Positions 27,200 to 28,778 of a stretch of DNA of 64,000 nucleotides are shown piece after piece. The notes beneath the pieces were generated by a model. That model searched no databases. It was not told where the DNA came from and was given only the letters and a program-made list of their open reading frames with translations. Each line of letters begins with the position of its first letter. Positions within the stretch are counted from its first letter, which is position 1. A program made the translations under genes and the position numbers. This stretch comes from Natrialba hulunbeirensis JCM 10989 (GTDB lineage: Archaea; Halobacteriota; Halobacteria; Halobacteriales; Natrialbaceae): contig NZ_AOIM01000035.1 of assembly GCF_000337575.1 (NCBI RefSeq), forward strand, positions 29,382 through 93,381, written 5' to 3'.

Positions 27200-27233
27200 T
27201 CGGTGTCCTGGATCGCTTGCTTTGTGCTCGTAC

Positions 27234-27240
27234 TTATACT
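27234..27240 (+). promoter_or_regulatory. TATA box of the trpS leader transcript
   Basis: TTATACT lies 54-60 bases before the leader-peptide ATG. A start site about 26 bases downstream (near 27262) would give a short 5' region before the leader and places leader, hairpins and trpS in one transcript. Confidence 0.55.
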
Positions 27241-27293
27241 CGTGTTCGTGACCGGAGAAACTGTTAGGTAACCCGGGCGACTACTGGGTAGTA

Positions 27294-27377
27294 ATGGCAA
27301 CCGCTCTCGAGTGGCGCTGGCGCTGGCAGCCGTCCTCGAGAGCGGACAGTGTCGTCCTCGCGGCCGGCGCGGCCTAA
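27294..27377 (+). CDS. 27-residue Trp-rich leader peptide upstream of trpS
   Basis: A small frame found by eye: ATG at 27294, stop TAA at 27375-27377. The peptide starts MATALEWRWRWQPSSRADSV and ends LAAGAA. Three Trp codons (27312, 27318, 27324) alternate with Arg CGC. Trp is rare in proteins, so three in 27 codons directly before the gene for tryptophanyl-tRNA synthetase is what a leader peptide sensing charged tRNA-Trp would look like. No good ribosome-binding site is visible (GGGTAGTA precedes the ATG). The region contains a perfect 11-bp inverted repeat that covers the Trp codons in its loop and is followed by a terminator-like element. Function as an attenuator is inference. Confidence 0.7.
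   Translation: MATALEWRWRWQPSSRADSVVLAAGAA
27301..27345 (+). promoter_or_regulatory. leader hairpin with Trp codons in its loop
   Basis: CCGCTCTCGAG (27301-27311) pairs perfectly with CTCGAGAGCGG (27335-27345); the 23-base loop contains all three TGG codons. A ribosome stalled on the Trp codons would hold this stem open. A further possible pairing is CGCGG (27359-27363) with CCGCG (27379-27383), which would compete with the terminator stem. Confidence 0.6.
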
Positions 27378-27418
27378 CCCGCGGTCGCGGTGGCGGGTGC
27401 TCCCTCCGTTTTTCGTTT
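27377..27418 (+). terminator. putative attenuator terminator before trpS
   Basis: ACCCGC (27377-27382) can pair with GCGGGT (27393-27398), and TTTTT follows at 27409-27413 with a further TTT at 27416-27418. The stem begins at the last base of the leader stop codon. Archaeal termination depends mainly on U-runs, so the T-rich part alone could terminate. Confidence 0.55.
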
Positions 27419-27464
27419 CGTACAGATTGCTGACGAGCACTGCGAGACAGTCACGACACAATAC

Positions 27465-28778
27465 ATGCCAACACCAGCCGATCAGAGAGAGCAGACCGAT
27501 AGCGAACCGACCGATACAACAGCCAGTACTGATAGCGAGCCAACTGACGCGACAACCAGCACCGACAGTGACCCACCCACCGACGCAGAACTGAACGCAG
27601 CGGCCGATCAGAACGCACCTACTGACGACTTCAGGGTCACGCCCTACGCCGTCACCGGCGAGGTCGACTACGAGAAGCTACTCGAGCGCTTTGGTGCTGA
27701 CCCGCTCACCGCCGACCAGATCGAGCGCTTCCCCGACCACCCGCTGCTGCGTCGGCGGACGTTCTACGCGGGCCGGGATCTCGAGGACTACCTCGACGCC
27801 GCCGAGGCCGGTGAACCGCACGCCGTCGTGACGGGGCGCGGTCCCTCGGGACCGATGCATCTCGGGCACGTCCTCCCGCTGTACCTCGCGAAACGCTTCC
27901 AGCAGGCGACGGGTGCGACCGTCTACATCCCGCTCTCGGACGACGAGAAGTACCTCGCGAAGGAGCAGTCGTTCGAATCGATCGGCGAGCACACTCGCGA
28001 GAACCTCCGTGATGTCCTCGCGGTCGGCTTCGACCCCGAACGCACCCGGATCGTGGTCGACACCGCCGACGCAGACGTGGTCTACCCGATTGCCGTTCGA
28101 CTCGCAAACCACCTCACGCCGGCTACCGTCGAGGCTGTCTACGGCGAACAGGATACCGTCGGCCTGCAGTTCTACCCCGCCGTGCAGGCGGCCCACCTCC
28201 TGCTTCCGCAGCTCGTGGCGGGTCGACAGCCCACGATTGTCCCCATCGCCATCGATCAGGACCCGCACGTTCGCGTCTGTCGCGACGTGGCCGCGAAAGA
28301 GGCGTTGCCCGTCGACAAACCCGGTGCGCTGCTCGGGCGGTTCCTCCCGAGTCTGGCGGGGCCGGGGAAGATGAGTTCCTCCGGCGACGCGCCGTCGATC
28401 GAGTTGACGGCCGATCCCGACACCGTCGCCGAGACGATCCACACCCACGCCTACACCGGCGGCCGAGCCACGCTCGAGGAGCACCGCGAGCACGGCGGCG
28501 ATCCGTCGGTCGACGTCCCCTTCCAGTACCTGCGATTCTTCTTCGAGGAGAACGACGAGACACTCGAGTCCATCGCCGACGCGTACCGTGCAGGCGACCT
28601 GCTCAGCGGCGAGTTGAAGGAGCTCGCGATCGAGCGGATCACGGACTTCCTCACAGCCCATCAGCGCCGCCGTGACGCGCTGGGCGAGATTTCAGACGAA
28701 CTCGAGTCCTACCGGCTCACGGACGACGAACGTCGCCGGGCACTGGAACGGGCTGGCGTTCCGGGGGTACTCGAGTAG
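27465..28778 (+). CDS. trpS: tryptophanyl-tRNA synthetase
   Basis: A 437-residue class I synthetase that charges tRNA-Trp. The HIGH-like motif is GPMHLGH (about residue 128-134) and the KMSKS-like motif is GKMSSSG (about 303-309), both typical of the archaeal/eukaryal TrpRS type; Trp-pocket segments include YIPLSDDEKYLAKEQ and AIDQDPHVRVCRD. The first 45 residues are a repetitive T/D/S/E/P/A run (repeats of TDSEPTDxT) absent from the family core, so an alternative later start is possible though the frame has none convincing. Preceded by the Trp leader and terminator at 27294-27418. Confidence 0.94.
   Translation: MPTPADQREQTDSEPTDTTASTDSEPTDATTSTDSDPPTDAELNAAADQNAPTDDFRVTPYAVTGEVDYEKLLERFGADPLTADQIERFPDHPLLRRRTFYAGRDLEDYLDAAEAGEPHAVVTGRGPSGPMHLGHVLPLYLAKRFQQATGATVYIPLSDDEKYLAKEQSFESIGEHTRENLRDVLAVGFDPERTRIVVDTADADVVYPIAVRLANHLTPATVEAVYGEQDTVGLQFYPAVQAAHLLLPQLVAGRQPTIVPIAIDQDPHVRVCRDVAAKEALPVDKPGALLGRFLPSLAGPGKMSSSGDAPSIELTADPDTVAETIHTHAYTGGRATLEEHREHGGDPSVDVPFQYLRFFFEENDETLESIADAYRAGDLLSGELKELAIERITDFLTAHQRRRDALGEISDELESYRLTDDERRRALERAGVPGVLE

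Follow-up and report, generated by a model that had tools for sequence, protein, structure and literature searches.

Can the position of a ribosome on a few tryptophan codons decide whether an archaeal gene is expressed? The question is raised by the DNA ahead of a tryptophan--tRNA ligase gene in the window (the whole 64,000-nucleotide stretch of Natrialba hulunbeirensis JCM 10989 that was analysed), which a preliminary description had read as an attenuator. In bacteria, attenuation that depends on the translation of a leader is a textbook mechanism; for archaea, a search of the open-access literature returned no report of a translated-leader attenuator. Sequence comparison indicates that the leader is probably an attenuator through which the ribosome controls haloarchaeal trpS. 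Conservation, the TGG frame, covariation in the first hairpin and constrained folding strongly support a translated Trp-codon leader in which the position of the ribosome would select the RNA structure formed before trpS. We infer, in addition, that the leader is translated, that transcription termination is the output, with the sign given below, and that the output responds to tryptophan.

The leader of trpS2 in the window

All the features described here lie on the forward strand. The gene, trpS2, encodes an auxiliary tryptophan--tRNA ligase (27465 to 28778, start ATG at 27465; NCBIfam NF008927, E 1.3e-175). It is the second such enzyme of the genome; the primary TrpS is encoded elsewhere, and its gene carries no leader of this kind. 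Ahead of trpS2, a short frame that recurs in relatives runs from an ATG at 27294 to a stop codon ending at 27377 and reads MATALEWRWRWQPSSRADSVVLAAGAA. Its putative sensor codons, TGG CGC TGG CGC TGG, occupy 27312 to 27326 (TGG at 27312, 27318 and 27324) and lie in the loop of a hairpin, P1, which is a perfect 11-bp inverted repeat (27301-27311 with 27335-27345). The 5' arm of P1 (CCGCTCTCGAG, 27301 to 27311) is referred to as segment 1 and covaries with segment 2, which comprises the 3' arm (CTCGAGAGCGG) plus an invariant ACAGT (27335 to 27350) and can pair with either segment 1 or segment 3. For its part, segment 3 is a conserved pyrimidine tract, GCTCCCTCCGTTTTTCG (27399 to 27415). The frame, the hairpin and the TGG codons in its loop were thus confirmed in the sequence as they had been described.

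The promoter had to be relocated. The TATA box that had been placed near 27231 was not conserved; instead, the base composition of 140 upstream regions aligned on the start codon showed CGAAAC at positions -38 to -33 and a T/A-rich, TATA-like element at -30 to -26, corresponding in the window to a BRE/TATA promoter at about 27254 to 27268 (GGAGAAACTGTTAGG). A promoter conserved at -38 to -26 implies that the transcript would start at the leader ATG or within approximately 10 nt before it.

Conservation and distribution in Halobacteriales

Relatives were collected by protein similarity, the leader not being a criterion. In the first search the leader was present at 30 of 30 trpS2 loci, and the few apparent misses among relatives were due to unoriented loci or variant spellings (L060/L285). 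Frame, hairpin and flanks were found again in 42 distinct loci by two scans. The best-kept letters in the alignment of these loci were both hairpin arms, the GGACAGT past the 3' arm, the TGG codons, TAACC at the stop and GCTC[C/A]CT approximately 57 nt downstream. Such an alignment had been proposed as a check on the preliminary description; Trp codons and hairpin were conserved, and the flanking sequence was not.

The unit conserved before trpS across Halobacteriales therefore consists of a near-leaderless promoter, a short frame, P1, the nearly invariant GCGGACAGT on the 3' side of the hairpin, and a downstream pyrimidine tract (consensus GCTC[C/A]CTYCGYT, about 57 nt away). The spacing from GCGGACAGT to GCTC[C/A]CT was 56 to 58 nt in 128 of 144 elements, despite sequence divergence. 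Of 392 Halobacteriales genomes searched with a covariance model of the element, 236 contained a match at E≤0.05, approximately 150 of these at 1e-14 or better; weak matches in G292 (the third), G022 and G102 contained no leader on reading, and most remaining matches with E >1e-4 were counted as chance without inspection. No element was found in a sample of the phylum outside Halobacteriales. Many Natrialbaceae keep a CCAGCC(G)C block in the stretch that separates the pyrimidine tract from trpS; it is missing from the window (about 27420 to 27464).

The gene downstream of the 144 distinct elements was trpS2 for 121 and trpS1 for 18. Where the leader stood on trpS1, trpS2 was absent from each of the 20 genomes tested, and trpS1 of G000 and 18 other genomes carried no leader. 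In a reduced-size haloarchaeal genome, a leader with WSWRW preceded a trpD-trpF-trpE cluster (L095; G050:C166:6133-6271). A reported link between BHB motifs, the splicing endonuclease and haloarchaeal trpS1 (PMC7714728) concerns an endA-trpS1 operon with a different 5' UTR, and this lead was dropped.

The Trp codons followed the frame of the leader. Among 65 non-redundant loops, 137 TGG triplets were in frame and 12 out of frame, and TGG made up 22% of loop codons, although loop length ranged from 14 to 57 nt. Leaders typically contained two to four in-frame TGG codons inside the P1 loop; a few had a single Trp codon, and two had none in the loop. An ATG or GTG occupied the matching start position in 141 of 144 elements. 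As in bacterial trpL, therefore, a leader with several Trp codons stands ahead of a Trp-related gene. In one leader (L040, G033) the middle TGG is changed to TGA, so that the frame stops after one Trp codon, with hairpin and tract intact. This leader, like those with a single Trp codon or none, speaks against the attenuator reading.

Candidate mutually exclusive pairings and the predicted switch

P1 showed clear covariation. Native arms paired better than swapped partners (permutation z -14.6; control z +1.1), and on the trpS protein tree eight independent changes at one pair all preserved pairing, with 0 contrary changes (p 0.008). The same kind of test supported a tail helix around the stop codon, with AGT..:..GCT closing pairs (27348 to 27401 in the window; permutation z -11.7, versus -2.8 for the reversed control). 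The evidence for P2, the pairing of segment 2 with segment 3 (27337-27346 as the partner of the tract in the window), came from duplex energies: only 2 of 5000 permutations reached the native mean (control z +1.1), and when arm types were contrasted (GGAAGTGGA, GCCAGCGGA, GGTAGCGGA and others) native partners were 2 to 4 kcal/mol better than foreign ones. The trpS-tree test, in which changes are too few, gave P2 no support. With a stalled ribosome imposed on the folding, a shuffled tract still paired at 0.63, compared to 0.88 for the native one, so pyrimidine composition accounts for part of P2. Sequence comparison suggests that P1 and P2 compete for the 3' arm of the hairpin, P2 being partly shown.

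Ribosome-constrained folding of 83 leaders was in agreement with such a competition. P1 reached 0.85 in the free RNA; placing a ribosome on the first Trp codon brought P2 to 0.88, and P1 returned to 0.78 with the ribosome at the stop; a footprint over the first Trp codon flipped P1 to P2 in 95% of the leaders. The corresponding values for the window were 0.98 for free P1, 0.98 to 0.99 for P2 with the ribosome on the Trp codons, and 0.99 for P1 with the ribosome at the stop, the TTTTT at 27409-27413 being buried in the predicted P2 helix and left free by P1. As in trpL, the 5' arm of the first hairpin would lie beneath the stalled ribosome.

These structures differ from those that had been sketched for the locus. 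The second stem, which was thought to start at the stop codon, is in its conserved form longer and encloses that codon, and the conserved alternative pairing joins the 3' arm of the hairpin to 27405-27415, in place of the pairing of 27359-27363 with 27379-27383. The attenuator of the preliminary description thus survives in outline, through conservation, the TGG frame, P1 covariation and constrained folding, but without its TATA box, its second stem and its competing pairing.

The following sequence of events would account for the switch. Transcription would begin on the leader ATG or immediately ahead of it, with a ribosome trailing the polymerase; transcription-translation coupling has been reported for Haloferax volcanii (H. 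volcanii) (PMC8576121). When charged tRNA-Trp is abundant, the ribosome would clear the TGG codons, reach the stop and depart, leaving segment 2 to pair with segment 1 in P1, together with the tail helix, and segment 3 single-stranded behind it. The exposed pyrimidine/T tract would then end transcription, with the T run, FttA (aCPSF1) or both as the agent. A shortage of charged tRNA-Trp would instead make the ribosome stall at the TGG codons and mask segment 1; the freed segment 2 would pair with segment 3 and so lengthen the tail helix to P2, with the result that the tract would be hidden and trpS transcribed.

Proposed output of the leader, rival readings and related elements

A T run had been reported before trpS, and the window indeed contains a T5C run (27409 to 27414; TTTTT at 27409-27413, then C). 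However, runs of at least four T occurred in only 39 of 138 leaders, and a T-run terminator was rejected as a general leader feature. Termination elsewhere would thus need the pyrimidine-rich tract, possibly with FttA. Archaeal termination by FttA/aCPSF1 and by T tracts has been reported (PMC7515710, PMC8116511), and in an H. volcanii reporter a signal of the T5C type led to the termination of 95% of transcripts (PMC7237163).

The scarcity of T runs lends itself also to a different reading, in which an identical sensor and switch has another output, P1 and P2 governing trpS translation or the stability or processing of the mRNA. Such an output would suit the short distance from segment 3 to trpS (45 nt in the window), the length and stability of the P2 helix, and the CCAGCC-rich block that many relatives keep ahead of the trpS start. 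We nevertheless regard it as unlikely, though a serious contender: segment 3 is conserved as a pyrimidine/T-rich tract that directly follows a GC-rich helix, the arrangement that a termination signal should have, the window holds the strong H. volcanii terminator type (PMC7237163), and no Shine-Dalgarno-like partner was seen in the window.

Comparison with known systems bears on the sensor. The bacterial trpL attenuator resembles the haloarchaeal leader in its short frame with repeated Trp codons and in the T-rich stretch ahead of a Trp-related gene; its mutually exclusive pairings and the stalled ribosome over the first hairpin arm correspond to what is predicted for the haloarchaeal leader. 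In contrast, the haloarchaeal leader has a near-leaderless start, nearly always precedes trpS rather than a biosynthetic operon, carries its Trp codons inside the first hairpin loop and has no general U run; moreover, its alternative pairing would lengthen a standing helix into the tract, whereas that of trpL blocks a separate terminator stem. TrpY, which acts on the Methanothermobacter trp operon, shares with it the archaeal control of tryptophan genes, but is a DNA-binding repressor that works at the promoter with no leader.

T-box leaders of Gram-positive trpS and trp genes are untranslated RNAs that bind tRNA and, like the proposed attenuator, place an aminoacyl-tRNA synthetase gene under the control of tRNA charging. 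With a UGG displayed in a hairpin loop and trpS as the gene, the leader could be imagined as a T-box-like RNA sensing uncharged tRNA-Trp directly. This is very improbable, as no Rfam match was found near the leader at E≤5 (the sole matches were upstream and far below threshold), and two to four in-frame UGG codons with a conserved start, maintained across loops of 14 to 57 nt, would not be expected of a single specifier codon.

Still less credible is the reading that the product of the frame is a small protein that has a function of its own. The C-terminal ...SRADSVVAAGDAA is alike among Natrialbaceae, but in other families the frame shifts, ending in GERTVS, or stops earlier, with the nucleotides of GCGGACAGT unchanged. 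Counted from the start codon, the frame in which GCGGACAGT is read varied by clade (119/14/3), and the stop codon moved from -10 to +45, lying ahead of the 3' arm in some elements and up to 45 nt past it in others; thus, selection has kept the RNA and its TGG codons, not the peptide. In accordance with this, the third positions of AGT and GCG were invariant, indicating a constraint at the RNA level downstream of the Trp codons. The same variation separates the leader from TnaC, a leader peptide likewise linked to Trp, in which tryptophan-induced, Rho-dependent ribosome arrest relies on particular residues of the peptide close to the stop: in the haloarchaeal leader, families differ in C-terminal peptide, frame and stop position.

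Finally, a chance assembly of GC-rich sequence, with which the unremarkable and by itself uninformative folding energy of the region would agree (simple folding z-score, -1.7), is refuted by conservation, the model matching the 236 genomes mentioned above and the pattern of 3' arm plus downstream tract occurring in 94 of 392 genomes, compared to 1 for the reversed pattern.

The proposed attenuator may extend beyond tryptophan genes. The same arms, GCGGACAGT or a (G)GACAGT-like box, and the downstream tract were found before genes unrelated to tryptophan: GNAT acetyltransferases (L097 and L099, with looser forms in L115 and L183), an ABC transporter (L101) and, at L177 and L190, a methyltransferase. 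Such elements outside trpS were few, and the model that picked them up had been trained on trpS leaders. In the GNAT leaders, Trp codons were absent or single. GNAT acetyltransferases, ABC exporters and methyltransferases are gene types linked to drug resistance in bacteria. It is conceivable, although we put it somewhat below an even chance, that haloarchaea possess a general class of attenuators, of which the trpS leader is merely the most frequent, with a shared chassis of P1, GCGGACAGT and tract and with varied loop codons, placed before GNAT, ABC exporter, methyltransferase and trpDFE genes, through which the ribosome would sense more than tryptophan.

A conserved archaeal case of attenuation would mean that transcription and translation are coupled tightly enough for regulation. 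It would offer a direct assay of that coupling and of FttA/T-run termination, and would show by what means the charging of tRNA-Trp is controlled in haloarchaea.
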